From Saccharothrix syringae (GTDB lineage Bacteria > Actinomycetota > Actinomycetes > Mycobacteriales > Pseudonocardiaceae): a stretch of DNA of 64,000 nt. Positions 1,647 through 39,374 of the stretch are shown piece by piece; within the stretch, counting starts at the first letter, position 1; each line of letters opens with the position of its first letter. The translations under genes and the position numbers were made by a program. The DNA lies in NCBI RefSeq assembly GCF_009498035.1, contig NZ_CP034550.1, forward strand, positions 1,116,001 through 1,180,000. Reading direction: 5' to 3'. The notes beneath the pieces are model-generated. The model searched no databases. It saw only the letters and a program-made list of their open reading frames with translations, and was not told where the DNA came from.

Positions 1647-4600
1647 GCAAGCTACTGCCCACACTCCAGGCGGCTCGGATCCGGACCAGCCTCGTCGACT
1701 ACCTTACGACGACCTTCGGGCTCACTGACGGAGACGCCCGCGACGGATTGGACTGGTTCCTGTCTGATCCGGATATCGGCATGTTCAAGGGGCCGTATGT
1801 GCGGCTGCGGTTGCCGTTCCGTCCAGCTGACGCCGGATGGCGGGCCACTCTTGACTGGTACGAAGGCTTCCCGCCGTACGGGCACCAAGCGGCGGCGTTC
1901 GCCCGGCTGGCGTCCGCCGCGGACGGGAAACCGCGTCGTCCGCTGCCAACACTGGTCACCACCGGCACCGGTTCGGGCAAGACCGAGGCATTCCTCTACC
2001 CGATCCTTGACCACGCGCTGCGCGCTCGCCGCGAGGGCGTGACGGGGATTAAGGCGCTCATCCTCTACCCGATGAACGCGCTCGCGAACGACCAGGCGGC
2101 GCGGTTGACGAAGCTGCTTACCACGCAGGGCGACCTCGCAGGGGTCACGGCCGCGCTCTACACCGGGCAGACCGGACCGACCCGCACCACGGTCACCCCG
2201 GACGGGCTGATTACCGACCGGGAGATCATCCGGGACACCGCACCGGACATCCTGCTGACCAACTACAAGATGCTCGACCAGCTGCTGCTGCGCGCCGAGG
2301 ACCAGGACCTGTGGCGGCAGTCGGCGACCAGTCTGCGCTACCTGGTGCTCGACGAGTTCCACACTTATGACGGCGCGCAGGGCACTGATGTGGCGATGCT
2401 GCTGCGCAGGCTTGGACTGGCGCTGAAGAGTTACTGGCAGGAGGACGACCCTCACATTGACGATGGGGCTCGCGCTCGGCCGCTCGGCCTGGTAACCCCG
2501 GTCGCCACCTCTGCGACGCTGGGCGACAAGGGCGACCCCACGGTAATGCTCGACTTCGCCCGCGCCGTCTTCGGGGAGCAGTTCGACGCAGACGCGATCG
2601 TGACCGAGACCCGGTTGAGTCTTGATGAATGGGCTGCAGGCGCGGCGGAGACCGTGTCCGCTGCCGGTCTCACGCCGGTGGAGATCGACGACCTCGATAT
2701 CGTCGGAGCGGTCAACGCGGTGTCGGCACTCGGCCACGACCCGACTGGCGTACTGATCGCCAGCACGGTCCTCGGAGTCCTGTACGGGGTCGAATCAGAC
2801 CGGTTCACCGACGAGTCTCCGGACTTCTTACTGGCAGCATGCCGTGCGCACCCGCTCGTGCAGGAGCTGGCGGGCCAGGCGGCACACGCGGTCGGTCTCG
2901 ACGCCCTGGCCGCCCGCGTGTTCGGGAGGGGTGACGGGGACGTCGCCCCTGTGGAGAACCTGCTGTCCTTCGTTCTGGCGGCACTCGCTCACGTGCGCGC
3001 GGTCGCGGGCCAGCCCGCGTTGTCGGTAGACGTCCACCTTTGGGTGCGTGAGTTGACGCGCATCGACCGGATCGCAGCGGCCTCGGCGCGGTTCCGGTGG
3101 GGGGACGACGGCCCGCCGGTCGCCGATGTCTACGCGGAAGAGGCCCGGCTGTCTTTCCCGGCGATCTTCTGCCGGCACTGCGGCCGCTCGGGTTGGGGCA
3201 TCGGTCTGGCACCGGTGGGCACGAGTCTGGCCGTGAATGACGACGATATCCGTCGTGACCACGCGGCAAGGGAAGGTCGTTTCCGGCCGTTGCTGTACGC
3301 CCCTGTCGAGGCGGCCGCCGACTTCGACGAGGGCCAGCGGGCAGATGGCTTGATGTGGTTCTCGGTGCGTCACCGGGAACTGCTCACCAGTGTGACCGAG
3401 GACAACCCCGCCTTGCGTGACGGCTGGATCCTGCCGGTGCTCACCAACGTCGGCGCTGACGCCGATGAGCAGAGTCGCAAAGACACCTGCCCGTCCTGCG
3501 GGCAGGAGGACGGCATCCGGTTCCTCGGCAGTGCGATCGCCACGCTGCTGTCGGTGTCCCTGTCCACGCTGTTCGGCTCGCCCACCCTCGACGCGAGGGA
3601 GAAGAAGGCGCTGGTCTTCACCGACTCGGTGCAGGACGCCGCGCACCGAGCCGGATTCATCCAGGCCCGCTCGCACACCCTGACCCTGCGGTCGGTGTTC
3701 CGCGATGCGGTGGCCGAGGGTGCGCTCACCCTCGACGAGCTGGTCGACGAGGTGATCCGGCAGGCGGGTGACGACCTGTTCGCGCGCTACCGCATCCTCG
3801 CCCCCGAGTGCGCCGACCGGGAGTCCTTCGTCGAGTTCTGGCAGGCGAAGTCGCTGCGCTCGGTGGGCTCGCCGGTACGCTCCCGCGTTCGCAAGCGGCT
3901 CGCGCTGGACGCCGCGCTGGAGTTCGGCCTCAACTCCCGCATCGGCCGCACCTTGGAGCTGACCGGTTCGGTGGCCGTCCATGTGGCGGCGGGGCAGCCC
4001 TCGCGGATGGCTGGCGTCGCCCGCGCTGCCATGCAGGGCACGACATGGCAGAACCAACTCGACGCGGACGACCGCAGCGACACGACGCTGGTGCAATGGG
4101 TTCGCGGCGTGTTGGACCGGATGCGCGCACAAGGCGCGATCGACCACCCGTGGTTCGACCGGTACCGCGCCGAGGATGGGCGAGACTGGTCGATCTGGGG
4201 CGGGCGACCCCGCGGCGAGGGTATGCCCGCATTCCCGCGCGACCGGCCCGCTCCCGCCTACCCGAAGGTCGGTGGACCGAGCGGGTCCACCCGAGGCTTG
4301 GACGCTGTCACCTCGGCCCAGTCCTGGTACGCCCGCTGGACCGCTCGTGTCCTCGACGTCTCCCCGCTCGACGGCGGACGGCTGGCGCGGCTGCTATTCG
4401 ACCGGTTGGCCCGTGACGGTGTGCTTATGACCACCACCAGCGACTCCGGCGCCACCGTGTACGCCATCCCCGCCTCCGGCGTCGTTGTCGCTCCCACCGA
4501 GGCGGCGGCCGCTCCGTCCGCCAGCCAACGTCTGCTGGTCTGTGACACTTGCCGGGCCACGACCCCTGGATCGCCTATCACGATCGAGCAGCTGACCGGA

Positions 4601-7600
4601 GCACCGTGCCTTCACGTGCGGTGCCGCGGCAGGCTTGTGCCCGAGCCGTTGCCGGACAACTTCTACCGCCGCCTGTACGCCTCCCCGGACATGCGTCGGG
4701 TCGTGGCCCGTGAACACACCAGCCTGCTGGACGACAAGACGCGCCTGGCGTACGAGGACGGCTTCCGCACCGCCAGCGGCAACCCGCAGGCACCCAATGT
4801 GCTGGTCGCCACGCCCACGCTCGAGATGGGTATCGACATCGGCGATCTCTCGGCGGTGTTCCTGGCTTCCCTGCCGCGCACCGTCGCCTCCTACCTACAG
4901 CGCGTCGGTCGGGCCGGGCGGCTCACCGGCAATGCCCTCGACATCGCCTTCGTCACCGGCCGCGGCGAGCAGCTGCCCAAGCTTGGCGACCCGCTGTCGG
5001 TCGTGGACGGTGAGGTGCGACCGCCAGCGACATACCTGGCCGCCGAGGAGATCCTGCGGCGGCAGTACACCGCATACCTGGTCGACGCCTTCGCTCGCGA
5101 TCCCCGACGCCGTCACCCGCACAAGGCTTCCGGAGCGATTGGGTCCTGCAAGCCGGGCACGTTCCTCGGCGATCTAGTCCTTCATGCCGAGCAAGGCGCC
5201 GATGAGGACCTGCCCCGGTTCGTCGCCACCTTCGACGACCTGCCCGAGGACGTGGTGACCGGGCTGCGCGAGTGGCTGCGCCCTGCCTCCGGGCTGCGCA
5301 CCAGTGGCTTCGCCGCTCACATCCACGCCGCCAGCCAGCGGTGGCAGGACACGGTGCAGACGCTGAAGCAACGGCAGATCGCCATCGCGGCGCTGCTGCC
5401 CGACCTGGAGGCACGGGTGGCGTCGCCTGCCGTGACCGACGACGACCGGCAGGCGCTGCGTTCGGCCAAGGCCACCGGCAAGCTGACCGCCGGCCAGCTC
5501 GCGCACCTGCGCGGTTCGTACTGGATCAGCGTGCTGGAGGAGTACGGGCTCCTGCCCAACTACACCTTGCTCGACGATTCAGTCACCCTCGACGTGGGTC
5601 TGTCCTGGGTCGACCCGGACACCGGGGGTCACAAGTACGACGCCGCGCAGTTCCAGCGCGGATCGGCGCACGCCCTGCGCGAGTTCGCGCCCGGTGCCAC
5701 GTTCTACGCTCGCGGCTGGGAGATCACGATCGATGCGGTCGACCTCGGGTTGGACGGTGCCTCGATCCGCACCTGGGCGTTCTGCCCCGCCTGCGGCTAC
5801 GCCGCCGATGTCGCCGAATCCGGCCGAGAGCTGCCCGTGCCGCCCTGCCACCGATGCGGCAGCCGAGGCATCCAGGACACCGGCCAGCGCCTCGACGTGG
5901 TCGAGTTGACCCGAGTGTCGGCCGAGGTCCGCCGGGATGAGGTGGCGATCTCCGACCGTCGCGATGAGCGTGGTCACGCCGCCTTCCAGATCGTCACCAC
6001 CGCCGACATCGATCCCGCCAACGCGGTACGCCGTTGGTTCGTCGAGGACACCGGCCTCGGTTGCACTTATCTGCGCACGGTTGACCTGCGGTGGATCAAC
6101 CTGGGAACGCCTGGCCACGGCGCAACTCGCACCATCGGCGGTGACGAGCGACAGGGCATGCTGTTCCGGGTCTGCTCCGGCTGCGGGAAGAAGGACACCG
6201 AATCCGGTCGTAATCGGCCGCACGAACACCGCCCATGGTGTCCGCACCGGACATCGGCCACCGAAGTGACGAGCACGATTGCCTTGTCACGAACGTTGCG
6301 CACCCAAGGATTGCTGATCCGACTGCCTCGCGCGATCACCGTCGGTGACGACTTCGCTGCGCCCAGCCTGGCTGCTGCTCTCCTGCTCGGCCTGCGTGAA
6401 CAGATGGGCGGACAGCCGGACCACATCCGGGTCGAACACGTCGTGGACCCGACGTTGTCCGACGGCACTGACAACCATGAGGCGATCCTGCTGCACGACG
6501 CGGTTGCCGGAGGCACCGGCTACCTCGCTGAGAACGCCGACCCCGCCCGCCTGCGCGAATTGCTCGTGCTGGCGTGGAACAGGGTCCGCGATTGTGAGTG
6601 TCGACACGAGGAACGACTCGCCTGCCACCGATGCCTGCTGCCGTTCGCCGCACCTAGTGCGATCCGGCGTGTCTCCCGCGCGTCGGCCGACCGGCACCTG
6701 CGCACTTTGCTTTCGTTGACTCCCGACGCTTCGACTGCCGAAGGGACGACTTGGACCGTGACTGAGGTGGCGCCTCACGAGGAGCCGGAGTCGCACCTGG
6801 AACGTGCGTTCCACCGGCTGCTCGTTGGCCGGCTGCGCCGCAATGGTGCCGCTGTCACCGAGACCCCGGGGCCAGCCGGCAACATCGTTCGCTTCACGCT
6901 GCCCGGCGCGCACCGACAGTGGACGCTCACCCCGCAGGTGAACGTCGCTGATTCAAGACCGGACTTCCTGCTGCAGACCACCGACATGAACGTGCCCGAC
7001 GTGGCGATCTTCACCGACGGACGGGCCTACCACGCCAGCGCTGCGTGCAACCGTCTCGCCGACGACGCGGCCAAGCGGGCGAACCTGCGCGACGCCGGCC
7101 TGCTCGTCCTCGCCATCACCATTCATGACCTCGCCGCTGAGGATGGCGTCCGCCACCCTGCGTGGTACAACCCCGACCTCGCCGGAAGCCTGATGAACGT
7201 GCCGCAACTTCAGGCGCCGCCGGAGGCGTACCGGGCACTCGGCCGCGGACCGGTGGACTGGCTCGTCGATTGGATCACCGCCCCCAACCCGGACGCGGTC
7301 CGTGCCGTCGCTCGGGCCGTACCGATGTTCCTGTCCGCAGGAGCACAGGGGGTACAGATCCCCGAAACCGTCGGTCTGGAGGAGGTGGCGCGGGCTGTCC
7401 TGCTCGACGAGCACCTGCCGAGTGGAGATCGCAAGGTTTACCTCTACCGTGCAGGTGCCCTCGCCGCTGTCATCGAGATGCTGCCCACGATGGTGGTGCG
7501 CGCGGCCCTTGTGCTCGACGACCGCGACGAGGTTCTTAACGACACCCACACAGCCGCGTGGCGAGGCTGGCTTCGGCTATCCAACGCCCTCGCGGCGCGG

Positions 7601-7966
7601 GACTGGCCCACCGTGGTGACCACGACGAGTCTCGCCGCCCCGGCGAGCACCGCCGAAGACGAAACCGACCAGCACGACAGCCGACCGGCAGGTGCTTGGG
7701 CCGACGCGTACGACGCTACGCGAGCTGGAGCGGAACGTACGCTTGTCGCGGCCCTCGCCGCTCATGCGATTCCCCCGCCCAAGATCGGAGCCGAGGGCCC
7801 CGACGGCATTCCACTCGACGTGTCCTGGCCCCAGTTGCGGGTCGTTGTCGGCTTCCCGGACATGGCGCCGCAGGACCGTGCCGACCTGATCGAAGCGGGC
7901 TGGCTGGTCGTGGACCCCTTGCCAGAGCTCGTCGTCGCCGCCGTCGCGGGCGCTATCTCACACTGA
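1643..7966 (+). CDS. Giant DEAD/DEAH helicase with DUF1998 and nuclease-like tail (DruE / DrmA-DrmB-like)
   Basis: Predicted 2107-aa superfamily 2 helicase, with a GTG start overlapping the upstream stop by 4 nt. Motif I (TTGTGSGKTEAF) is near residue 106, motif II is DEFH near 236, motif III ATSATLG near 290, an ATPTLEMGID block near 1056 and motif VI QRVGRAGR near 1086. Cys pairs (CRHCG, CPSCG, CPACG, CHRCG) suggest zinc knuckles. A DUF1998-like segment with GGTGYLAE and a closing CHRCLLPF lies near 1620-1670. The tail near 1770-1815 (SRPDFLL, then FTDGRAYHA) resembles a PD-(D/E)xK/Vsr-type nuclease, which is inference. Size and layout fit DruE of Druantia; DISARM DrmA and DrmB fused would look similar. 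It may translocate on or unwind phage DNA. Confidence 0.82.
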   Translation: MSKLLPTLQAARIRTSLVDYLTTTFGLTDGDARDGLDWFLSDPDIGMFKGPYVRLRLPFRPADAGWRATLDWYEGFPPYGHQAAAFARLASAADGKPRRPLPTLVTTGTGSGKTEAFLYPILDHALRARREGVTGIKALILYPMNALANDQAARLTKLLTTQGDLAGVTAALYTGQTGPTRTTVTPDGLITDREIIRDTAPDILLTNYKMLDQLLLRAEDQDLWRQSATSLRYLVLDEFHTYDGAQGTDVAMLLRRLGLALKSYWQEDDPHIDDGARARPLGLVTPVATSATLGDKGDPTVMLDFARAVFGEQFDADAIVTETRLSLDEWAAGAAETVSAAGLTPVEIDDLDIVGAVNAVSALGHDPTGVLIASTVLGVLYGVESDRFTDESPDFLLAACRAHPLVQELAGQAAHAVGLDALAARVFGRGDGDVAPVENLLSFVLAALAHVRAVAGQPALSVDVHLWVRELTRIDRIAAASARFRWGDDGPPVADVYAEEARLSFPAIFCRHCGRSGWGIGLAPVGTSLAVNDDDIRRDHAAREGRFRPLLYAPVEAAADFDEGQRADGLMWFSVRHRELLTSVTEDNPALRDGWILPVLTNVGADADEQSRKDTCPSCGQEDGIRFLGSAIATLLSVSLSTLFGSPTLDAREKKALVFTDSVQDAAHRAGFIQARSHTLTLRSVFRDAVAEGALTLDELVDEVIRQAGDDLFARYRILAPECADRESFVEFWQAKSLRSVGSPVRSRVRKRLALDAALEFGLNSRIGRTLELTGSVAVHVAAGQPSRMAGVARAAMQGTTWQNQLDADDRSDTTLVQWVRGVLDRMRAQGAIDHPWFDRYRAEDGRDWSIWGGRPRGEGMPAFPRDRPAPAYPKVGGPSGSTRGLDAVTSAQSWYARWTARVLDVSPLDGGRLARLLFDRLARDGVLMTTTSDSGATVYAIPASGVVVAPTEAAAAPSASQRLLVCDTCRATTPGSPITIEQLTGAPCLHVRCRGRLVPEPLPDNFYRRLYASPDMRRVVAREHTSLLDDKTRLAYEDGFRTASGNPQAPNVLVATPTLEMGIDIGDLSAVFLASLPRTVASYLQRVGRAGRLTGNALDIAFVTGRGEQLPKLGDPLSVVDGEVRPPATYLAAEEILRRQYTAYLVDAFARDPRRRHPHKASGAIGSCKPGTFLGDLVLHAEQGADEDLPRFVATFDDLPEDVVTGLREWLRPASGLRTSGFAAHIHAASQRWQDTVQTLKQRQIAIAALLPDLEARVASPAVTDDDRQALRSAKATGKLTAGQLAHLRGSYWISVLEEYGLLPNYTLLDDSVTLDVGLSWVDPDTGGHKYDAAQFQRGSAHALREFAPGATFYARGWEITIDAVDLGLDGASIRTWAFCPACGYAADVAESGRELPVPPCHRCGSRGIQDTGQRLDVVELTRVSAEVRRDEVAISDRRDERGHAAFQIVTTADIDPANAVRRWFVEDTGLGCTYLRTVDLRWINLGTPGHGATRTIGGDERQGMLFRVCSGCGKKDTESGRNRPHEHRPWCPHRTSATEVTSTIALSRTLRTQGLLIRLPRAITVGDDFAAPSLAAALLLGLREQMGGQPDHIRVEHVVDPTLSDGTDNHEAILLHDAVAGGTGYLAENADPARLRELLVLAWNRVRDCECRHEERLACHRCLLPFAAPSAIRRVSRASADRHLRTLLSLTPDASTAEGTTWTVTEVAPHEEPESHLERAFHRLLVGRLRRNGAAVTETPGPAGNIVRFTLPGAHRQWTLTPQVNVADSRPDFLLQTTDMNVPDVAIFTDGRAYHASAACNRLADDAAKRANLRDAGLLVLAITIHDLAAEDGVRHPAWYNPDLAGSLMNVPQLQAPPEAYRALGRGPVDWLVDWITAPNPDAVRAVARAVPMFLSAGAQGVQIPETVGLEEVARAVLLDEHLPSGDRKVYLYRAGALAAVIEMLPTMVVRAALVLDDRDEVLNDTHTAAWRGWLRLSNALAARDWPTVVTTTSLAAPASTAEDETDQHDSRPAGAWADAYDATRAGAERTLVAALAAHAIPPPKIGAEGPDGIPLDVSWPQLRVVVGFPDMAPQDRADLIEAGWLVVDPLPELVVAAVAGAISH

Positions 7967-7980
7967 TCCGGGGAGTAGCA

Positions 7981-10110
7981 ATGCCGACCATCATCATGGG
8001 CAAGCTCGCGAGCAAGATCGATGGCTCGATCCGTGCCAAGGCCATGACGTTCCTGCAAAAGCTCGGTGCCGACGACACCACCCCCGGCTTGCACGTCGAA
8101 CCCATCCAGAACGCCTCCGACTCCAGGGTCCGGACCGGCCGGGTCGACGGCTCCTGGCGGGCTGTCATGTTCCGCCTCGACAGCGGCGGCGAGCGCCACT
8201 ACGTCATCCACGGCATCTGGCCGCACGACGACGCGAACACCGTGGCGCAGCGCGTGCGGCTGAGCGTCAACCCGATCAACGGCTTGCCGCAGGTCGAGGA
8301 AATCGCGGCGCCGGTCGTGCCGGTCACACCCGACACGACTCCGCCGGTGAACCAGCCGCTGTTCGCCCGCATAGGTCACGACCGCGGCGCCCTGGTCAAC
8401 ACCCTCGGCCTGCCCCAGGACGTTGTTGACCAGGCCTTCGCCGCCGCCGACGAGGACACTGTGCTGGATCTCGCTCAGCGCTATGACGGGTGGATCGGCA
8501 CCATCCTGGTCGACCTCGCCGCCGGCGACACGGTGGAGGCAATCGTCGCGCGTATGCAGCTGGAGAAGGCGCCTCCGTCAGGCGACACCGACACCGACGT
8601 CCTCAACTCGTTCAAACGGCCTGCCGCAGCACTCCAGTACGCCTTCATCGGTGACCAAGAGGAGTTGCGCCGTGTCATTGAGCAGGGTGACTTCGGCGCA
8701 TGGCGGATCTTCCTGCACCCCGAGCAGCGTCGTTACGTCGAACGCAGTTACAGCGGCCCGTTCCGGCTGTCCGGAGGCGCAGGCACGGGTAAGACGGTGG
8801 TGCTCATCCACCGGGCCCGTGCGCTGGCCCAGCGCGACCCACAGGCCCGGATCGTACTGACCACATTCACCACAAACCTTGCCGAAGCACTGGGTGACGG
8901 CCTCGCACAGCTCGACCCACGCGTCCCTCAGACCAAGGCACTCGGTCAGCCCGGCGTGCACGTCACCGGGGTGGACGCTCTCGCCTCCGCTGTGCTGCGC
9001 AATGCCGGTAGCGGCCTGGCCGCCGCCATGCGCGAGGTCCTCGGCGAGGAACGTTCCGCGCCGATCGCCCGCACGCCAAGTACTCAGTGGCGGGAGGTCA
9101 TCGAGTCGACTGACACATCGCTGCCGCACGAGCTGGCGAACGAGATGTTCCTGTCCACCGAGTACGCCCACATCGTGCTGCCCAATAAAGTCCATGACGA
9201 GGCCGGTTACCTCCGAGTGCGCCGCCCCGGACGAGGTGTGGCCCTCGACCGTGCCAAGCGTTCGGCTGTATGGGCGCTGATCGCGGCGTACCGGGCACAG
9301 AGCCGCATCGACGGCAAACTCGACTTCACCGAGGCCGCCGCTGTCGCCGCCGCACACCTCGCCGGTCAGGCGAACAAGCAAGCCGACCACGTCCTCGTTG
9401 ACGAAGGTCAGGACCTTTCACCCAGCCACTGGCAGCTACTGCGCTCCCTCGTCGGACAGCACTCTGACGACCTCTTCATCGCCGAAGACACACATCAGCG
9501 CATCTACGGCACTCGTGTAGTCCTCGGCCGGTATGGCGTGGCCATCGTCGGTCGCTCACAACGACTTACCCTCAACTACCGGACCACCGCACAAAACCTG
9601 CAATATGCGATGAGCATCATCGATAGCGGGCAGTACGTCGATCTCGAAGATCAGCCCGAGGCCACCGGCTACCGTTCCGCTCGTACCGGCCCGAACCCGA
9701 TCGTCGAATCTGTTGACTCCCTCAGCGAGGAGTTGAAAGCCGTCGTCAACCACGTCCGGGCCTGGCTGGAATCCGGGGACGCTCCCGACACCGTGGGGGT
9801 TCTCGTTCAGGACCGCTTCCATCGCGACCGGATGGTGACGGCGCTGACTGAACACGGTATCGACGCTCGCGCGGTCGATCGTGAACGGCCGCCCTCAGGT
9901 CGGGTGCCGGTCATGACCATGCATCGAGCCAAAGGCACCGAGTTCTCCAAGGTCGTGCTGGCAGCAGGCCGCCCATCGCCCGCTGAACTGGCACGTTTGG
10001 AAGCGCTGGAGCCCTCCGAGCGGGCCGATGCCGAGTTGCGAGCCCGATCGCTGCGCTACGTGGCAGCCACCCGTGCCCGAGATGAACTTGTGGTCGTGAG
10101 CCGCCTGTGA
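7981..10110 (+). CDS. UvrD/REP-type helicase with N-terminal RelE/ParE-like domain
   Basis: A 709-aa protein starting at ATG 7981 behind GGGGAG, 14 nt after the giant helicase. Residues 1 to about 100 have the RelE/ParE toxin-fold pattern: a basic helical start, then GRVDGSWRAVMFRL, then a Tyr-Val-Ile-His strand ending in HDDANT. The rest is a superfamily 1A helicase: Walker A SGGAGTGKT near residue 265, Walker B VDEGQD, LNYRTT, and VMTMHRAKGTEF near 643. I see no separate nuclease domain. The RelE-like part may bind nucleic acid or be a toxin domain; its catalytic residues were not verified. It is the third gene of the methylase-helicase operon and shares its orientation and spacing, so it probably acts with it. 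Confidence 0.82.
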   Translation: MPTIIMGKLASKIDGSIRAKAMTFLQKLGADDTTPGLHVEPIQNASDSRVRTGRVDGSWRAVMFRLDSGGERHYVIHGIWPHDDANTVAQRVRLSVNPINGLPQVEEIAAPVVPVTPDTTPPVNQPLFARIGHDRGALVNTLGLPQDVVDQAFAAADEDTVLDLAQRYDGWIGTILVDLAAGDTVEAIVARMQLEKAPPSGDTDTDVLNSFKRPAAALQYAFIGDQEELRRVIEQGDFGAWRIFLHPEQRRYVERSYSGPFRLSGGAGTGKTVVLIHRARALAQRDPQARIVLTTFTTNLAEALGDGLAQLDPRVPQTKALGQPGVHVTGVDALASAVLRNAGSGLAAAMREVLGEERSAPIARTPSTQWREVIESTDTSLPHELANEMFLSTEYAHIVLPNKVHDEAGYLRVRRPGRGVALDRAKRSAVWALIAAYRAQSRIDGKLDFTEAAAVAAAHLAGQANKQADHVLVDEGQDLSPSHWQLLRSLVGQHSDDLFIAEDTHQRIYGTRVVLGRYGVAIVGRSQRLTLNYRTTAQNLQYAMSIIDSGQYVDLEDQPEATGYRSARTGPNPIVESVDSLSEELKAVVNHVRAWLESGDAPDTVGVLVQDRFHRDRMVTALTEHGIDARAVDRERPPSGRVPVMTMHRAKGTEFSKVVLAAGRPSPAELARLEALEPSERADAELRARSLRYVAATRARDELVVVSRL

Positions 10111-32311: not shown

Positions 32312-32486
32312 CCGGCCGATTTTGCCACGGGTAGTCGGTGCGTTCGGGGCGATCGGAGGCACCCGGTCGACCGGCCCGCGCCACCGCGGCGCCGCACCCG
32401 GATTTGTCCACTTTTTGGCCCGTAGCGCTCCGATTGCCCACTTTTTTGTCTTTTTTGCCCTGTCTCCGGTGCATATTATCGGCCGC
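32312..32486. promoter_or_regulatory. Divergent promoter region between SARP and TIR operons
   Basis: Unusually T-rich for this genome: CCACTTTTT occurs twice, followed by CTTTTTT. TATTAT at 32473-32478 ends 8 nt before GTG 32487 and there is no ribosome-binding site, so the TIR mRNA may be leaderless. The strand-asymmetric T-runs could serve as a regulator or nucleoid-protein (Lsr2-type) target. Confidence 0.5.
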
Positions 32487-33077
32487 GTGTCCGGTTACCA
32501 GTTCGATTTGTTCATCAGCTACGCCCGTCGTGGCAGCGTGCAGAAATGGCTGTTGAACCACTTTCACCAGAAACTTCTGGAGTGCCTGGCAGACCAGTTG
32601 GCGCCGACGCCGAAGGTGTACGTCGACAGGACGATGCCGCGCGCTGTGCACTGGCCCTCCAACCTGCGAGACGCCCTGCGGCACAGCAAGATCATGATTC
32701 AGCTGCTCACGCCGCACTACTTCCAGTCGCAGTGGTGCAGGGCCGAGTGGTACAGCATGTTGGAGCGGGAGAGGATGCTCGGGCTGGCCAGTTCGGGGAG
32801 TTCGCAGGGGCTGGTCTACCCGATCCTGTACTCGGATTCGGACAACTTCCCGCCGGAAGGGAAATTGCGCTCCTGGCTTGACTTCAAGGAGTTCGCCCAC
32901 CCGGATCCGCCGTACCAGCAGACCAGCCACTTCGTCCTCTTCCACCGCGAGGTCAACAAGGTCGCCGCCGACCTCGTCCAACTGATCCAGCAGGCGCCTC
33001 CCTGGCAACCCGACTGGCCGGAGGTGGACCCGCCCGACCCCGTGCTCCCCCCGACACCTCCACTGCCGAGGTTCTGA
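32487..33077 (+). CDS. TIR-domain protein, catalytic Glu present
   Basis: 196 aa from GTG 32487. The TIR fold is recognisable: FDLFISYARRG at the start, PKVYVDRTMP, WPSNLRDALRHSKIMIQLLT, then SQWCRAEW with the Glu (residue 87) at the position of the NADase catalytic Glu of SARM1 and bacterial TIRs. The C-terminal 30 residues are Pro-rich. First gene of a four-gene operon; the next gene starts inside its stop (TGATG). Probable NAD-cleaving effector or signalling-nucleotide producer, but activity is inferred. Confidence 0.85.
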   Translation: MSGYQFDLFISYARRGSVQKWLLNHFHQKLLECLADQLAPTPKVYVDRTMPRAVHWPSNLRDALRHSKIMIQLLTPHYFQSQWCRAEWYSMLERERMLGLASSGSSQGLVYPILYSDSDNFPPEGKLRSWLDFKEFAHPDPPYQQTSHFVLFHREVNKVAADLVQLIQQAPPWQPDWPEVDPPDPVLPPTPPLPRF

Positions 33078-34705
33078 TGACACCCGGGACAGTCGTCACG
33101 TTCTACTCCTACAAGGGCGGGGTGGGGCGGAGTTTCACGCTGGCCAACGTCGCCGTGCTGCTGGCCCGCTGGGGCTACCGCGTGCTCACCGTCGACTGGG
33201 ACCTGGAGGCACCCGGCCTGCACCACTACTTCAGGTCGGTGATGTCCGAGGAACCAGAGGGCGGCGTGATCGACCTCGCCCACGACTTCCTCGCGGGTGC
33301 GGAAGGCCCCCGTCCGCACGCCGTGCGGGTCGACGTCGAGGGCAACACCCTCGCGCTCCTGGCCGCGGGCCGGGTCGACGGCTCCTACACGGAGCGGATG
33401 CAGCGCATCGACTGGGAAGACCTCTACCGGCGCGGGTTCGCCGACTTCCTGGAGCGCTGCCGGGAGGAGTGGACCGAGGACTACGACTTCGTGCTGATCG
33501 ACAGCCGGACCGGGATCTCGGACATCGCCGGCATCTGCACCGCGCAGCTGCCCGACCGGCTGGTCGTCCTGTTCACCGCCAACGAGCAGAACCTCAAGGA
33601 CGTGGTGGACGTCGTGCGGCGCGCGGACATCGCCCGGGACCGGCTGCCCTACGACCGGCCCCGGCACCTCGTGCTGCCGATCCTGTCCCGCCTGGACACC
33701 CGGGTGGAGTACGAGCGGGCCGAGCAGTGGCGCGGCAGGTGCGCCGAGGTCGTCGCGCCGCTGTTCGGCAACTGGCTGGTCAAGACCGTGCCGGAGGACC
33801 TGATGCTGCGGCACCTGACGGTGCCCTACATCTCGTACTGGAGCTTCGGCGAGCAGCTTTCCGTGCTGGAGGAGCACGTCCCGTCGGCGGACCAGGTCTC
33901 GTTCGCCCTGGAGACGGTGGCGGCCGTGATCGCGCAGCAGTTCGACCGCACCGACCTGCTCGCCGACAACCGGGACGCCTACGTGGCGTCGGCACGCGAC
34001 CGCCATCGGGACTTCGCCCTGGACCTGCTGGTGTCCAGTCCGCGGTCCGCACTGCGCATCGCGGACCAGCTGATCGAGGAACTGCGCGCCCTGGACGTGC
34101 GGGTCGAGCGGTCCTCGTCCGGTGACCCGGAAATCCTGGAGCAGGCCAGCGAGCTGGCCGAGCACCTGTGCCTGGTGGTCGACGGCGGCCTGAGCCGCTG
34201 GCAGGTCACCGAGGTGGAGCGCTTCCTGCGCCACACGATCGGCCCGGACGGCGGTCAGCGGCGGCTGTTCTGCGTGCTGACCGGCGACACCGACCAGAGG
34301 AGTCTGCCGGGCTTCCTGCGCAACCTGCGCCACCTGCGGTTCGAGCCGGGCGTGCGCCCCGCCGGCGTGGCCCGGGAACTGCACGACCTCATCACCGGCA
34401 CGCCCGCCGGTGAGGTGGACCGGGACCTGGAAGCCCTGCGGAACACGGCGTCCGCGTTGCGCGCCGTGCCGGACCGGGTGCCCTCCGCCGGGCGGTTGTC
34501 GCTGGTCGAGCAGACCGTGCGCGGCATGTACGCCGCGTTGGACAACGGCGACCTCGCCGCGTTGCGGGACCTGTCGGTGGACCTCGACGTGCTGTCCAAG
34601 TCCCACTCGAACGGCACCGGGTTCAGCCTGTCGCCCGGCCTGCTCACCGACGTCCACACCCTCCTCGACCGGATCGACCGTCGGATCGACGCGTCCACGA
34701 ACTGA
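33077..34705 (+). CDS. KGGVGR-type SIMIBI (ParA/MinD-like) ATPase with TIR-like C-terminal segment
   Basis: 542 aa. Deviant Walker A YSYKGGVGRSFTLANVA near residue 11, a switch block VDWDLEAPGLHHY, and a DFVLIDSRTGISD Walker B near residue 140. These define the KGGVGR-motif variant of ParA-like ATPases, often found next to TIR and effector-associated-domain genes. Residues about 320-435 (a strand with DVRVERSSSG, AEHLCLVVD, a WQ-x-x-E helix, then LPGFLRNL) look like a degenerate TIR fold; this is my inference. Likely an NTP-driven switch that assembles or licenses the TIR effector. Confidence 0.85.
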   Translation: MTPGTVVTFYSYKGGVGRSFTLANVAVLLARWGYRVLTVDWDLEAPGLHHYFRSVMSEEPEGGVIDLAHDFLAGAEGPRPHAVRVDVEGNTLALLAAGRVDGSYTERMQRIDWEDLYRRGFADFLERCREEWTEDYDFVLIDSRTGISDIAGICTAQLPDRLVVLFTANEQNLKDVVDVVRRADIARDRLPYDRPRHLVLPILSRLDTRVEYERAEQWRGRCAEVVAPLFGNWLVKTVPEDLMLRHLTVPYISYWSFGEQLSVLEEHVPSADQVSFALETVAAVIAQQFDRTDLLADNRDAYVASARDRHRDFALDLLVSSPRSALRIADQLIEELRALDVRVERSSSGDPEILEQASELAEHLCLVVDGGLSRWQVTEVERFLRHTIGPDGGQRRLFCVLTGDTDQRSLPGFLRNLRHLRFEPGVRPAGVARELHDLITGTPAGEVDRDLEALRNTASALRAVPDRVPSAGRLSLVEQTVRGMYAALDNGDLAALRDLSVDLDVLSKSHSNGTGFSLSPGLLTDVHTLLDRIDRRIDASTN

Positions 34706-34716
34706 AAGGCGGCGCA

Positions 34717-35325
34717 ATGCCGGAGCAATTCGCGAACGACGAACGGGCAGCGCTCATCGTGCTGATGCTGGAGAACCGGGATGTGCGCAACAAGGAGCTG
34801 ACCGAAGACCTCAAGACCAGGCTCGGCAAGCAGGGCCGTGAGCGGTTGAACGATCTCGGGCTGCTCCATTCGTGGAAAGAGAAGAGCGGGATCGTGCACC
34901 GGATCACCGATGAGGGGATCACCTGGTGCCTGAAGGACTTGGTGGCGGGTGGACCGCCGACGAGGTCGGGTTCCCTGTCCCGGGCGCACTTCGCGGTGCT
35001 GAGGACCTTCATCCAGTACCACCAGCGGCAGGGCACCCTGGCCGAGGTGATCCGCTCCGGCGCGGACCTGGAGTCGGTCATCCGGGCCGCCTACCTGGAA
35101 CTCTCGGCCAAGCCGCAGGACTGGGTCCGGCTGGCCAGGCTCCGCCCCCGGCTCAACGGCGCCGACCGGGACGAGGTCGACGCGGTCCTGCTGGAGATGG
35201 TGCGGACCGGCACGGTCCACCTGGCCCCGGACTCCAACCGCAAGGTGCTGACCGAGGCCGACCACGCCGCCGCGATCCGGATCGCCGGCGAGGACAACCA
35301 CCTGGTGGCGATCGAGGAATCATGA
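34717..35325 (+). CDS. Small winged-helix-like protein of the TIR-HerA operon
   Basis: 202 aa from ATG 34717. The N-terminal 75 residues (LIVLMLENRDVRNKELTEDL, then LNDLGLLHSWKEK and HRITDEGITW) read as a winged helix with the wing ending in a conserved Trp. The second half is helical with a QDWVRLARLRPRLNG segment. The two halves probably fold separately. No enzymatic motif. Overlaps the next gene (ATGA). Possible adaptor or nucleic-acid sensor; I do not recognise a named family. Confidence 0.75.
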   Translation: MPEQFANDERAALIVLMLENRDVRNKELTEDLKTRLGKQGRERLNDLGLLHSWKEKSGIVHRITDEGITWCLKDLVAGGPPTRSGSLSRAHFAVLRTFIQYHQRQGTLAEVIRSGADLESVIRAAYLELSAKPQDWVRLARLRPRLNGADRDEVDAVLLEMVRTGTVHLAPDSNRKVLTEADHAAAIRIAGEDNHLVAIEES

Positions 35326-38300
35326 CCGAGCAGCAGCGCAAGGCACTGGCCACGCTCCGCTTCAACTCCGCCGAGACGCCGGACGACGTGTGGCAGACCT
35401 CGCCGTCGCACGTGGACGGGTTGCACGCCAGGGCGGAGGAGCGGATCCGGGCCGGTATCGCGGATGCCAGGGCCAGCACCGGTCCCAGCCCCATCGGCCT
35501 GGTGCTCCAGGGCCGGAAGGGGGTCGGCAAGACCCACCTGCTGGGGTCGGTGCGCCGCATGGTGCAGCGCGAGGGCGGCTACTTCTTCCTGGTCGAGCTG
35601 ACCACGGGCCAGGAGTTCTGGGCCGACGTCGCCGAGGCGATGCGCAGCGAGCTGCGCCGGACCACGGACGACGGCGAGCTCCAGCTCACCGTGCTGCTCC
35701 GGCAGCTGTGCGACATGGCGGGCGTGCCCGCGACGGTGGCGGGGGCGATCACCGGCACGGCGGCGTTGACCCCTCACCACCTGGACGTGTTCCTGAACCA
35801 CCTGCGCGAGGTGGACGGCCGGATAGCGTTCGAGTGCGGGGACACGATCCGGGCGCTGGTGCTCTACGCGTCCGAGCACGCGGACGTCGGCATGGCCCAC
35901 CTCCTCGGCCTGGGGGAGGGAAGCCGGGAGTGGGGCCTGCTGCCCATGGCGAAGCAGCCGCTGACGCTGGTGCGGGACATCTCGCGCGTCCTCGCCATGA
36001 CCGGCCCGTGCGTGATCGCCGTCGACCAGCTGGACACCCTCGTCGGTCTGAGCCAGGACGAGTTCGACGCGGAGGTGAGGAGCGCCGAGGTGAGCCGGGA
36101 GCTCTCGCTCATCGCCGACGGGTTGATGAAGCTCCGGGAGAAGACCAGGCGGACGCTGTCGATCGTGGCCTGCCTGCCGAACACCTGGAAGATGCTGCAC
36201 TCCATCGTGAGCGACACGGTCACCGACCGGTTCACCGAAACCCCGATCCTGGGTTCGATCGTCGACCCGGCGATGGGACGCGCGCTGGTGGAGCGGTGGC
36301 TCGGGGCGGTGTACCGGCGCAACGACGTGACACCGCCGCACCCGACCTGGCCCGTGGCGCCCGGCGCCTTCACCGACGGGTGGGTCTCGCGGACGCCGCG
36401 CCAGTTGCTCAGGAGCATCCACGCGCACGCCGAGTCGTGCCTGCACGGTGAGATCCGGGAGCTGCTCTCCTTCGACGAGAAGCCCGTCGAGGCGCCCCCG
36501 CCCGCACCCGTGCCCGAGGGACCGGAACCCGAGTACCTCCAGGAGTTCGACGCCCAGTTCCAGCGGCTGCGTGAGAAGGCGGAGATCTCCGCCGCCGCGT
36601 TGCAGCGGCACAACGAGGACGACGTGATGCCGGCGCTGCTGCTGGCCGGGCTGAAGTCGTGGATCAACGAGGTCGGCAACGACGACCTGGCGTGGAAGGC
36701 CGAACAGCTCCAGGGCGGGAGCGACGCGCACGCCCAACTGCTCCACACCGTGAACGAGGACCTGGACACCGACGAGCGCTGGGGGTTCCGCCTCATCGCG
36801 AGCGCCCACGGCAACCACGTGTTGCGCCGAATGCGCAGGGTTCGCGATGCGGCCCGCTTCGGCACGCACAACCGGCACCTGGTCCTGCTCCGCAACGGCG
36901 ACGACGGGTGGCAGGGGGCGAAGACCAAGGAGGAGCTCGCCGAGCTGGAGCAGTCGGGAACGCGGCGGGTCGAGATCTCGGACGACGACCTGCGGACGTT
37001 CAGCGCGCTCAAGGAGATGCTGCCCACCCAGACGCACCAGCTGCTGGCCTGGCTGGTGGCGCGGAAGCCGGCCAGCCGGGGGACGTTCCTGCGGGAGGTC
37101 CTGCCCGGGCCGGAGCGGGCCGCGGTCGGGCACCAGGAGACCCGGCCGCCGCCGGCGGGGGGACCGGCCGCACCGACCGCACCGCCCTCGCCGACCGAGG
37201 TCGTGCTCGGCATGGACGGGGAGATCCGCATCGAACTGGAGTCGCTGCGCAAGCACGCCATCGTGTTCGCGGGTTCCGGCAGCGGGAAGACCGTGCTGCT
37301 GCGGCGGATCGTCGAGGAGTGCGCCCTGCGGGGGGTGTCGGCGATCGTGCTGGACCCGAACAACGACCTGGCGCGGCTGGGTGACGCGTGGCCGCGGCCA
37401 CCGGCCGACTGGCTGCCCGGTGACGAGGGCCACGCCGCCGAGTACCTGGCGAACACCGAGGTGGTGGTGTGGACGCCCGGCCGCGCGGGTGGGCGGCCGC
37501 TCAGCTTCCACCCGCTGCCGGACTTCGCCGAGGTGCTCGAGGACGTCGACGAGTTCACCGCCTCGGTCGAGGCGGCGGTGGCCCGCCTCATCCCGCACGC
37601 CAGGGTCGGCGGCGGTTCGAAGGGCGCCGTCCGCGGCCAGGCCGTGCTGCGGGAGGCCCTGACGCATTACGCGCGCAAGGGCGGGCGGGACCTGGCGGAG
37701 TTCATCGAGGTGCTGGACGACCTGCCCGAGGGGGTGAGCAAGCTCAGCACCGCCCGGGCGACGGCGGCGGACCTGGCGGAGACGCTGCGGGCCGCGATGG
37801 TCAACGACCCGCTGCTCGGCGGTGCGGGTGAACCCACCGACCCGGCCGTGCTGCTGACCCCCGCGCCGGGCAAGCGGGCGCGGATCTCGGTGATCAGCTT
37901 CGTCGGGCTGCCGTCGGAGGTGCAGAAGCAGGGGTTCGTCAGCCAGCTCCAGCTGGAGGTGTTCGCCTGGGCCAAGCGCAACCCGGCGGTGGACCGGCCG
38001 CTCGGCGGCCTGGTCGTGATGGACGAGGCGCAGACGATCGCGCCGTCCACCGGCTGGACGGTGAGCACGCAGAGCACGATCCTGCTGGCCTCGCAGGCCC
38101 GCAAGTACGGGTTGGGCCTGCTGCTGGCCACCCAGGCGCCGAAGGGCGTGCACAACCAGGTCGTCGGCAACGCGACGACGCAGTTCTACGGCAGGCTGAA
38201 CACCTCGGCGCAGATCGCCGCGGCGACCGAGATGGCCAAGGCCAAGGGCAGCTCGGTGGGTGACATCGCGCGGTTGGAGCGCGGGCAGTTCTACGTCACC

Positions 38301-38414
38301 GGGGAGACCTTCGGGTTCCGCCGGATGCGGACGCCGCTGTGCCTGAGCCACCACCCGTCGAGCCCGCTGCGCCTGGAGGAAGTGCTCGACCGGGCGCGCA
38401 ACGGCCGGCACTGA
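35322..38414 (+). CDS. Two-ATPase fusion: N-terminal AAA/STAND-like and C-terminal HerA/FtsK-like motor
   Basis: 1030 aa from ATG 35322. N-terminal P-loop VLQGRKGVGKTHLLG near residue 64 and VIAVDQLDTLVG near 230 resemble ORC/STAND-type AAA ATPases. A helical linker with a Pro-rich segment (about 385-400) follows. The C-terminal motor has FAGSGSGKTVLLR near residue 649, VLDPNNDLARLG, VVMDEAQTIAP near 897, then LATQAPKGVHNQV and a FYGRLNTSAQI block, the HerA/DUF87 pattern. HerA-type rings pair with Sir2 or nuclease effectors in known phage-defence systems, where they sense or translocate DNA. Last gene of the operon before a strong terminator. Confidence 0.87.
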   Translation: MTEQQRKALATLRFNSAETPDDVWQTSPSHVDGLHARAEERIRAGIADARASTGPSPIGLVLQGRKGVGKTHLLGSVRRMVQREGGYFFLVELTTGQEFWADVAEAMRSELRRTTDDGELQLTVLLRQLCDMAGVPATVAGAITGTAALTPHHLDVFLNHLREVDGRIAFECGDTIRALVLYASEHADVGMAHLLGLGEGSREWGLLPMAKQPLTLVRDISRVLAMTGPCVIAVDQLDTLVGLSQDEFDAEVRSAEVSRELSLIADGLMKLREKTRRTLSIVACLPNTWKMLHSIVSDTVTDRFTETPILGSIVDPAMGRALVERWLGAVYRRNDVTPPHPTWPVAPGAFTDGWVSRTPRQLLRSIHAHAESCLHGEIRELLSFDEKPVEAPPPAPVPEGPEPEYLQEFDAQFQRLREKAEISAAALQRHNEDDVMPALLLAGLKSWINEVGNDDLAWKAEQLQGGSDAHAQLLHTVNEDLDTDERWGFRLIASAHGNHVLRRMRRVRDAARFGTHNRHLVLLRNGDDGWQGAKTKEELAELEQSGTRRVEISDDDLRTFSALKEMLPTQTHQLLAWLVARKPASRGTFLREVLPGPERAAVGHQETRPPPAGGPAAPTAPPSPTEVVLGMDGEIRIELESLRKHAIVFAGSGSGKTVLLRRIVEECALRGVSAIVLDPNNDLARLGDAWPRPPADWLPGDEGHAAEYLANTEVVVWTPGRAGGRPLSFHPLPDFAEVLEDVDEFTASVEAAVARLIPHARVGGGSKGAVRGQAVLREALTHYARKGGRDLAEFIEVLDDLPEGVSKLSTARATAADLAETLRAAMVNDPLLGGAGEPTDPAVLLTPAPGKRARISVISFVGLPSEVQKQGFVSQLQLEVFAWAKRNPAVDRPLGGLVVMDEAQTIAPSTGWTVSTQSTILLASQARKYGLGLLLATQAPKGVHNQVVGNATTQFYGRLNTSAQIAAATEMAKAKGSSVGDIARLERGQFYVTGETFGFRRMRTPLCLSHHPSSPLRLEEVLDRARNGRH

Positions 38415-38423
38415 TCCCCGGCA

Positions 38424-38472
38424 CGGCGAAACGCGCCCCCCACCCGGGAACGGTGGGGGGCGCGCTTCGCCG
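38424..38472. terminator. Bidirectional terminator between HerA-like and TIR-like genes
   Basis: A 13-bp perfect GC-rich stem (38432-38444 with 38452-38464, loop CCGGGAA flanks) extended after one mismatch by CGGCGAA/TTCGCCG (38424-38430 with 38466-38472). It lies between two convergent genes ending at 38414 and 38478. Confidence 0.88.
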
Positions 38473-38477
38473 CGCGG

Positions 38478-39374
38478 TCAGCCGACGGTCGACGCGAGCG
38501 TCGCGTCGATCCGCTCCCAGAGCGCGGTGAACAGCTCCTCCCGGCGGTACGCGCGCGGCGCGGCACCGCCGCCGAGCACCGAGAAGTCGTGCACCTCCAG
38601 CACGGCCGCGCCCGCGTCGGTGTCGTAGACCGGGCGCGCCCAGCCGTTGGTGAGGGGGCCGCTCCCGTCGTTCCGACCGACCACGAAGTTGACCGTCTCG
38701 TCACCGCCGATCCCGCCGCGCTGGACGTCGAGCGCGTACACGGTGTCGCCCGCCCGCTCGACCCGCACGGCGATCCGCGTCTCGCCGACGTGCGCGGTGC
38801 CGACGAACCCGCGCCGCTCCAGCCGCGGGAGGGCCGCGGCGAACTGCTCGCCCAGGTAGCGCAGCGTCGCGTCCTGCTCGGCGTAGCGGCTGAAGGTGGC
38901 GGGCACGACCGGCTCCGCCTCCTCCGCCGACGCGAGCCCCTTGACCCCGCCGACCACCTCGGTGACCGGCGTGAACGCCTGCCCGACCGCCTCCGCGGCC
39001 TCGACCCGGGCAGCCAGCGCCTCGGTGAGCCGGTCCGCCCGGTCCGCCGTGCCGCGCACGTAGGCCACGTGCGGGTGCAGCAGGTCCGGGGGCACGCTCA
39101 CGTCGCCGAGCAGCACGGGCAGCACGTGCTCGTCCCCGGCCTTGACCGCGCGCAGCGCGGCCGTGGTGAAGTCGTCCACCGCCGACACGAACGGCACGAA
39201 GAACCGCACCCGCGCGTCCGGCAGGTCGCCGCCCTCCTTGTGGGACCACCACTCGTGGGTCAGCTCGGGCCCGTGCAGCACGGTCAGCCCGCGCTGCTCG
39301 AACGCCTCGACCACCTTCCCGACGGCGGAGCGCTGCTCCTCGCTGAACGACACGGCGACGTCGTACTCGCTCAC
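38478..39374 (-). CDS. TIR-like protein lacking the catalytic Glu
   Basis: 298 aa. GTG 39374 is fixed by AGGAGG 8 nt upstream. The first 140 residues have the TIR pattern SEYDVAVSFSEEQRSAVGKV, AFEQRGLTVLH, RVRFFVPFVSAV and LPVLLGDVSVP, but the W-x-x-x-E helix reads DDFTTAALRAV, with no Glu. The C-terminal half (VPATFSRYAEQDATLRYLGE, then RRGFVGTAHVGE) is a beta-rich domain I cannot name. Convergent with the TIR-HerA operon. Could be a binding rather than enzymatic TIR, perhaps a modulator. Confidence 0.75.
   Translation of the reverse strand: MSEYDVAVSFSEEQRSAVGKVVEAFEQRGLTVLHGPELTHEWWSHKEGGDLPDARVRFFVPFVSAVDDFTTAALRAVKAGDEHVLPVLLGDVSVPPDLLHPHVAYVRGTADRADRLTEALAARVEAAEAVGQAFTPVTEVVGGVKGLASAEEAEPVVPATFSRYAEQDATLRYLGEQFAAALPRLERRGFVGTAHVGETRIAVRVERAGDTVYALDVQRGGIGGDETVNFVVGRNDGSGPLTNGWARPVYDTDAGAAVLEVHDFSVLGGGAAPRAYRREELFTALWERIDATLASTVG

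Follow-up and report, generated by a model that had tools for sequence, protein, structure and literature searches.

A four-gene operon in the Saccharothrix syringae genome

The window analyzed here is a 64,000-nucleotide stretch of the actinomycete Saccharothrix syringae (NZ_CP034550.1, positions 1,116,001 to 1,180,000 of the forward strand), which lies in a single-contig genome of 10.93 Mb. Near its middle, four genes on the plus strand form one unit, encoding a TIR-domain protein, a ParA-like protein with a KGGVGR motif, a small protein (gene 3), and a large ATPase in which an AAA domain is fused to a HerA/FtsK motor (the AAA-HerA protein, or HerA). The TIR and KGGVGR genes overlap at TGATG, an 11-bp gap separates the KGGVGR gene from gene 3, and gene 3 overlaps the AAA-HerA gene at ATGA. 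An earlier interpretation made from the letters alone (hereafter, the sequence-only reading) had proposed this unit as a candidate undescribed immune system, and the gene order, strand, and spacings that it gave all agreed with the coordinates when these were checked. The genes and domains are as follows (positions in the window; aa, amino acids; REase, restriction endonuclease).

32487..33077, plus strand: TIR-domain protein, 196 aa; Pfam TIR_2 match; Glu87 codon at 32745-32747; proline-rich tail ending in PRF
33077..34705, plus strand: KGGVGR-motif ParA-like protein, 542 aa; NF047398 match; K13-R18 invariant
34010..34396, plus strand: TIR-like domain of the KGGVGR protein, in its C-terminal half (approximately residues 312-440); AlphaFold2 model and PDB fold matches
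34717..35325, plus strand: small protein (gene 3), 202 aa, probably a DNA-binding subunit of the winged-helix type; immediate upstream neighbour of HerA in 128 of 128 loci; weak winged-helix match
35322..38414, plus strand: AAA, REase-like, and HerA/FtsK ATPase, 1030 aa; Pfam AAA_22 and DUF87; structural model and Foldseek matches
35427..36446, plus strand: N-terminal AAA domain, approximately residues 36-375; Walker A K70 intact; Walker B D235-Q236
36615..37019, plus strand: middle domain, approximately residues 432-566, with helices and strands arranged in a PD-(D/E)XK-like order; modelled secondary structure and column counts
37194..38399, plus strand: HerA/FtsK motor domain, approximately residues 625-1026; Walker A, Walker B, and sensor Gln intact

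The 4-bp overlap between gene 3 and the AAA-HerA gene was present in 46 of 46 loci obtained from a scan of genome contigs and in 44 of 60 obtained from a search of the family. The G+C content of the TIR gene (63.1%; 86.8% at third positions) was lower than that of the seven other genes measured (67.5-76.6%).

A constant gene 3-HerA core with changing effectors

We labelled 128 loci (46 from the genome-contig scan, 60 from the family search, 20 from a class search, and 2 from a plasmid collection; three near-copy pairs are among them), with neighbours judged within the fetched loci. HerA was matched at E ≤ 1e-30 in 106 of 297 genomes of the family, in 17 of 46 genera, and at E ≤ 1e-40 in 32 of 296 genomes of the class, the window's own genome included. 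Of the 46 loci from the contig scan, 38 had all four genes in order and 8 had gene 3 and HerA alone. TIR and KGGVGR always occurred together (both in 38 of 46 and 28 of 60 loci, and one alone in 0). The four genes stayed together in clade A (45 loci) and in clade B (19 loci), whose flanks differ, so the conserved co-occurrence that the sequence-only reading had put forward as a check was found.

Gene 3 stood directly upstream of HerA in all 128 loci, and the partners of this core varied: TIR and KGGVGR in 66 loci, DUF4365 with a family labelled F4 in 16, AIPR in 12, DUF559 in 12, a TIR-DUF559 fusion with a downstream PIN_8 gene in 3, PIN_8 in 1, and none recognised in 18. DUF4365 and F4 occupied the same upstream slot as TIR and KGGVGR; DUF559 also lay upstream, and AIPR downstream. 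The names were checked against Pfam for AIPR (5.1e-46; 1 of 12 loci), DUF4365 (1.8e-11; 2 of 16), DUF559 (2e-14; 6 of 12), PIN_8 (1.5e-61; 2 of 4), and TIR-DUF559 (2 of 3). In both of the fusions tested, from three loci in one genus of another family, TIR (1.6e-34) and DUF559 (1.5e-12) lay on one polypeptide upstream of the core, and TIR thus recurs as an output of this core. These three loci (L164, L158, and L157) have the order TIR-DUF559 fusion, core, PIN_8, and L164 and L157 add a KGGVGKT ParA-like gene after HerA. F4 proteins (approximately 333 residues, e.g., L075 at 7302-8303, oriented) accompanied DUF4365 in all 16 of its loci, occupying the KGGVGR slot, and the two members scanned had no Pfam match. 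The S. syringae genome itself has a second copy of the core (L074, G000:C1:4564102), in which DUF4365 and F4 replace TIR and KGGVGR. Five genomes of one genus (G119, G211, G220, G244, and G251) carried two HerA copies each, one in the identity range of clade A (69-70%) and the other in that of clade B (55-57%); of the five clade B copies, the two that were fetched, L058 and L064, both had TIR and KGGVGR.

We then consider a quick HerA tree of 125 rows, window included, with support from the Shimodaira-Hasegawa-like approximate likelihood ratio test (SH-aLRT) only and no bootstrap. L105, whose HerA frame is truncated, and one member of each of three near-identical pairs were left out; the L059 row of the alignment was ignored for its wrong coordinates (a reversed locus), as were minus-strand "TIR2" matches inside HerA, which are shadow frames from an impure profile. 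The TIR and KGGVGR loci formed one group of 67 rows with a support of 100, in which L071 was the sole row without the pair, and the partner groups required 16 changes on the tree versus 55.7 in shuffles. The nearest named relatives of the window were Saccharothrix. Most clade A rows fell into groups by genus on this tree; L033 (Amycolatopsis), placed among Lentzea, was one of the exceptions. Because nuclease groups surround the TIR and KGGVGR group, the earlier output of the core would have been a nuclease; no order of the nuclease clades is claimed, because several DUF559 and DUF4365 rows gave long-branch warnings.

These patterns bear on the idea that two unrelated operons, TIR-KGGVGR and the HerA pair, merely happen to be adjacent here. 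Although the HerA pair occurs without TIR and KGGVGR in 62 of 128 loci, the four-gene set is retained in clades A and B in spite of their different flanks, and TIR with KGGVGR forms a single clade on the HerA tree; the idea is therefore very improbable and is disfavoured.

The TIR protein and a second TIR-like fold in the KGGVGR protein

The TIR protein matched Pfam TIR_2 at 1.1e-12 (49 bits, against a cut-off of 28), and E87 was conserved in 66 of 66 relatives, in agreement with the sequence-only reading of a TIR that retains its catalytic Glu. Its nearest NCBIfam family was FxsC_Nterm (57.7 bits, under the cut-off of 130), matched by 23 of 23 rows. The proline-rich tail (window 33000-33074) ended exactly in PRF in 26 of 66 relatives, others often adding a few residues, and may be a docking motif. 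At L061 (5876-6701, oriented), the TIR gene is apparently split over two frames, a seemingly broken copy beside KGGVGR and HerA.

The KGGVGR protein showed ParA-like sequence matches and matched NF047398 at 158.5 bits (cut-off 90), and each residue of K13-R18 was present in 66 of 66 relatives, as expected of the KGGVGR ParA-like protein named earlier. The P-loop lysine was replaced by Arg in all 66, and the loss of this lysine weakens nucleotide use. A related MinD/ParA-like domain is called inactive in PMC7159879. Because of this substitution and that description, an ATP-driven KGGVGR switch is doubtful, and with it the proposal of the sequence-only reading that a KGGVGR ATPase licenses the TIR.

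The KGGVGR protein ends, according to its model, in a TIR-like fold that the sequence-only reading had missed. The C-terminal 242 residues were modelled with AlphaFold2 from 33 rows (mean predicted local distance difference test [pLDDT], 79.9; predicted TM-score [pTM], 0.53), and of the eight PDB matches at E ≤ 0.001, all but one were to TIR domains, with E values from 3.3e-4 to 8.1e-4 and a TMt of 0.58-0.61; the exception was a receptor fused to a flavodoxin. Lower in the same list came SARM1 and a NAD-consuming TIR from a bacterium, and response regulators and flavodoxins, whose general fold is similar, were also present. By sequence alone the assignment failed, with an hhalign probability of 0.3% against the window TIR and no PDB profile match; it is based instead on the structure search and on the KGGVGR-TIR proteins of other actinobacteria. 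W375 was found in 66 of 66 relatives and E379 in 65 of 66 (one Asp), and both E379 and E381 were invariant in the 33-row C-terminal alignment. The C-terminal profile matched the TIR of L180 weakly (E 0.013), with E381, not E379, opposite the Glu of that TIR; the counterpart of the catalytic Glu in the TIR-like domain could thus be either residue.

KGGVGR matches at E ≤ 1e-20 occurred in 33 of 197 class genomes. Among the 29 KGGVGR loci scanned, which extend approximately 1.5 kb from the match, 10 had an upstream TIR and a TIR right after KGGVGR, 5 had an upstream TIR only, and 14 had neither. In the three of these 10 TIR/KGGVGR-TIR pairs that were checked, the upstream gene was FxsC over cut-off (3 of 3) and the KGGVGR protein had a TIR_2 domain (3 of 3). 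Because both consist of a TIR gene before a KGGVGR-TIR gene, and because the window TIR is nearest to FxsC, the window pair and the FxsC/KGGVGR-TIR pair appear to have a common origin.

Gene 3 and the AAA-HerA protein

Gene 3 had no Pfam match, and one NCBIfam match (E 0.0036) was far under its cut-off; a profile match to the Z-DNA-binding winged helix of ZBP1 in the PDB was weak (E 0.0087). The winged-helix label of the sequence-only reading is thus kept in a softer form, and gene 3 probably encodes a winged-helix DNA-binding subunit.

The AAA-HerA protein matched Pfam AAA_22 at residues 60-132 (1.3e-8) and DUF87 at residues 634-876 (1.8e-9); against the Pfam ORC-CDC6-like family, the AAA part reached only 0.54. 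Its structural model had a mean pLDDT of 79.8 and a pTM of 0.44, and at this pTM the placement of the domains relative to one another is not trusted. In a Foldseek search, the model matched Sulfolobus HerA (E 5.4e-10), the SIR2/HerA antiphage complex, and the C-domain of DndH (TMt 0.59). Among the 50 matches listed, the whole protein matched HerA/FtsK-type motors, and the low TM-scores by query length (0.21-0.27 in the rows shown) suggest that only the motor part matches. A HerA motor fused to a second ATPase, as originally described, is supported by domain matches for both parts and by predicted structure for the motor; furthermore, of the two folds on which the sequence-only reading had made its proposal depend, HerA was predicted here and a TIR-like fold in the C-terminus of the KGGVGR protein.

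In the motor domain, K656, D901, E902, and Q938 were each conserved in 125 of 125 rows, window included. In the same rows, the AAA domain kept its Walker A lysine (K70, 125 of 125) and D235 (125 of 125), and its Walker B Glu was replaced by Gln (Q236) in 125 of 125. Such a Walker B change from Glu to Gln slows or stops hydrolysis. Because of this Gln and the P-loop Arg of the KGGVGR protein, the motor, if there is one, would be the HerA domain. The secondary structure predicted for residues 432-566 fits a PD-(D/E)XK nuclease, and no catalytic motif was recognised there.

A coupling-protein-like HerA/FtsK beside a ParA could also be the remnant of a DNA-transfer or plasmid-partition system. TrwB was among the fold matches of the AAA-HerA model, and the KGGVGR protein has the ParA-like matches mentioned above; the partners of the core, however, are nucleases and TIR instead, and no relaxase or transfer gene was noticed among the neighbours named by family, in flanks that were not systematically annotated. 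We regard such an origin as highly unlikely.

Flanking regions and genomic context

Four further features adjoin the operon.

32404..32479, plus strand: conserved upstream region; alignment with clade A loci
38418..38477, no strand assigned: hairpin between convergent genes, probable terminator; -51.5 kcal/mol
38478..39374, minus strand: convergent gene, 298 aa, possible TIR-superfamily N-terminus, associated neighbour (TIR2-like gene); TIR_2 18.3 bits
39903..41126, plus strand: XRE-type regulator, associated neighbour; HTH_31 7.4e-12

When the window was aligned with loci L004-L039, L048, and L049 of clade A (80% consensus), the boxes TTGTCCACTTT (32404) and TGCCCACTTT (32435) were conserved. 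Two TGNCCACTTT boxes lie 30 bases apart within 32404-32451, and this pattern is otherwise absent from both strands of the window. TATTAT occurs at 32474-32479, 7 bases ahead of the GTG start of the TIR gene, and a sigma-70 scan gave 0 promoters. The conserved region may serve as a promoter or operator, and the transcript would be leaderless. The 3' hairpin is very strong (-51.5 kcal/mol, z -5.5), has no T run, and was passed over by a consensus terminator scan (0 terminators); the terminator that was said to close the unit is upheld as a hairpin that probably acts as one.

Clade A loci commonly carried the convergent TIR2-like gene (36 of 45), whose TIR_2 match in the window (18.3 bits) is below the cut-off of 28, and the XRE regulator (39 of 45). 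Clade B loci had neither, and in 18 of 19 the immediate upstream neighbour was a SEFIR-like gene in opposite orientation; all three of those tested were SEFIR, two also matched NPCBM over cut-off, and one matched PADLOC bSEFIR at 8.4e-31. Two other flank families were present in both clades, a common regulator (42 of 45 and 6 of 19 loci, mostly on the minus strand) and a second family (24 and 8 loci). Apart from these two, the part shared by clades A and B is the four genes.

These neighbours could be the real executioners: the TIR protein might make a nucleotide messenger or act as a scaffold, with the TIR2-like, SEFIR, or KGGVGR-TIR protein killing the cell. Thoeris-type TIRs make messengers, three TIR-superfamily candidates lie at or beside the locus, and the nearest family, FxsC, belongs to multi-component systems. 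The TIR2-like gene, however, is found in 36 of 45 clade A loci, and because the clade A TIR2-like and clade B SEFIR neighbours matched each other only marginally, they do not supply a common executioner. We consider this alternative unlikely.

The clade A loci are chromosomal, keep their neighbours across Pseudonocardiaceae, and do not form a typical mobile island. In the genus, 9 of the 25 genomes had a HerA in the clade A identity range (68-100%), and 7 had a close XRE gene (at 85-88% identity in the six other than the window's own), all seven being among the nine HerA carriers. A search for empty sites in these genomes gave no occupied/empty pair, and the XRE neighbour was absent wherever clade A HerA was absent. 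Such stability would suit a domesticated locus that senses the state of the cell's own DNA (segregation, damage, or hyphal development) and drives hyphal compartments into death or dormancy, with phages not the target. The retention of the TIR2-like and XRE neighbours across genera, the 63-84% identity to the window of HerA in the 38 four-gene loci, and a G+C content near the window average (70.3% versus 71.7%) all fit this alternative. On the other hand, the distribution within the genus is patchy, the core carries different effectors, and clade B has other flanks; we judge it distinctly unlikely.

In the plasmid collection, five records matched HerA, three of them over most of the protein and all at less than 60% identity; of these three, one is 11.85 Mb long and one has ribosomal protein genes, so the three may not be true plasmids. 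In a Tsukamurella record deposited as a plasmid (L143, 6293-11261), DUF559, gene 3, and HerA lie between rplN and rpsQ, adjoined by a VapB/PIN pair; these ribosomal protein genes make its plasmid status doubtful. Ribosomal protein genes also occur near L045 and L152, and this site may be an insertion hot spot. Outside Actinomycetota, a Methylobacterium plasmid carries L144, a distant copy (38% identity) accompanied by DUF559. Among loci picked for their interesting-looking neighbours, pPIWI_RE was upstream in all four tested of the 12 AIPR loci (L085, L088, L089, and L091), and type I restriction genes were found in a fifth, L042. Upstream of the operon in the window, a gene resembling the C-terminus of a type IIG restriction-methyltransferase (1.8e-141) is followed by one for a 2107-residue DruE-like helicase (3.6e-84; both within 45-7966), and an SNF2 helicase gene at 15184-18411 matches DpdE (3.6e-222) and ZorD. 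In L021, an SNF2 helicase gene with 58% identity to it (3817-7002) immediately precedes the same operon.

A probable cell-sacrificing defence

The swapping of effectors on a constant core points to conflict with foreign DNA, and both the co-occurrence of the four genes in two clades and the varying effectors on the core fit a pattern that is frequent in immune systems. The operon is probably a cell-sacrificing defence against invading DNA. With moderate confidence, we favour a DNA-triggered, HerA-dependent switch with a TIR output, in which loss of nicotinamide adenine dinucleotide (NAD+) stops or kills the infected cell. Gene 3 and the AAA-HerA protein would form the constant DNA-sensing, DNA-motor module, which foreign or abnormal DNA would engage. 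In relatives, DUF559, DUF4365, AIPR, or PIN_8, all predicted nucleases, would provide the output; here, a TIR enzyme would do so, held by the KGGVGR protein, the TIR-like domain of which could act as an adaptor or assembly seed. Once released or assembled, the TIR protein would consume NAD+, and the infected cell would be stopped or killed. Such a switch compares best with SIR2-HerA. The gene order, the co-occurrence, the exchange of effectors on one core, and the predicted folds of HerA and of the second TIR-like domain are what was observed; the DNA trigger, complex formation, NADase activity, and protection against phages or plasmids are what we infer from these comparisons.

Several observations weigh against this switch. 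The curated family nearest to the TIR protein is FxsC, matched below cut-off, and the KGGVGR protein is without its P-loop lysine. The effector labels come from profiles built on the same 128 loci, and the nuclease counts carry no chance expectation. The core pair has no recognised effector in 18 of 128 loci (L105-L110 and 12 others), several of them in the genus of the window. Clade A, unlike a usual mobile defence gene, keeps its neighbours and appears to follow genera. Lastly, no relative was found in 50,697 phage records, and none of 34 pattern matches in viral contigs was confirmed. With these null results and plasmid matches that were few and doubtful, we set aside phage or plasmid cargo as an identity for the locus.

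A wider scenario is offered more tentatively, at less than even probability. The core would have at least five outputs (DUF559, DUF4365, AIPR, PIN_8, and TIR), and in Pseudonocardiaceae it would have taken over an FxSxx-type TIR/KGGVGR-TIR pair. DNA cutting would thereby have given way to a two-TIR relay, with the active TIR seeded by a non-hydrolysing KGGVGR-TIR adaptor, and multicellular actinobacteria would then have retained it in place as a lasting immune or death switch. If the proposal is right, HerA-type DNA motors would be general sensors wired to nucleases or TIR enzymes, and the little-understood KGGVGR and FxsC proteins would be linked to a defined partner. The loci form a natural set with the same core and different effectors, which suits swap experiments on effector activation by HerA complexes.

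Comparison with known systems

Membership of several known systems was rejected on the five proteins scanned. For Thoeris, ThsB was matched at E 0.0037 and the type III ThcB4 at 5e-5, below cut-off, with no ThsA; for MADS, the HerA part matched mad8 (PADLOC 5e-19), with no other mad protein. As in bSEFIR (PADLOC), a TIR-related protein lies beside clade B copies, but it is not in the window operon. BREX-Related Capture likewise combines HerA/FtsK with an AAA and a DNA-binding partner, but the PglZ, STAND, and TGT components described in PMC12839542 were not matched here.

FxSxx-COOH systems contain FxsC and KGGVGR-TIR, often with NB-ARC-TPR, and resemble the window pair in that a TIR gene is directly followed by a KGGVGR gene encoding a TIR-type domain of its own (PMC7159879). 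The window pair differs in that it sits on a HerA core and matches none of the models for the FxsC C-terminal domain, NB-ARC, and FxSxx_TPR; membership was rejected, with FxsC at 57.7 of 130 bits and no FxSxx_TPR match in the KGGVGR protein. SIR2-HerA (Nezha) likewise joins an NADase-type effector to a HerA motor, both of which are needed for immunity according to PMC11559045. The window HerA differs in being fused to AAA and REase-like domains and in its TIR and KGGVGR partners, and no SIR2 match was found in the five scanned proteins, so the operon was not assigned to Nezha.

The claim that the system is undescribed stood in part. No TIR, KGGVGR, and HerA set was named in the literature titles and abstract openings searched, a search that does not extend to the supplementary data of PMC10853773, which may hold such a set; the core, however, resembles HerA/FtsK capture from that study. 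This class consists of a HerA/FtsK with an Orc/CDC6 AAA+ ATPase, an inactive REase, an active REase, and a winged helix-turn-helix (wHTH) protein, and TIR fusions to related Orc/CDC6 proteins are described outside the HerA association (PMC10853773). At the window, the HerA/FtsK ATPase is evident from DUF87, the fold match, and Walker residues conserved in 125 of 125 rows. Profile scans revealed no active REase in the four genes, and in relatives one is present as DUF559, DUF4365, or AIPR. In other words, TIR and KGGVGR stand here in place of the active nuclease that is usual for the class; the AAA domain, moreover, has a natural Walker B Gln and is only a candidate Orc/CDC6 member. The shared features are a motor with an AAA ATPase, an effector, variable fusions, and a proposed anti-invader role (PMC10853773), to which a candidate REase-like domain and a probable wHTH partner may be added. 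HerA/FtsK capture is the closest described class, and this conserved operon, with its unusual two-TIR output, appears to be a variant of it.

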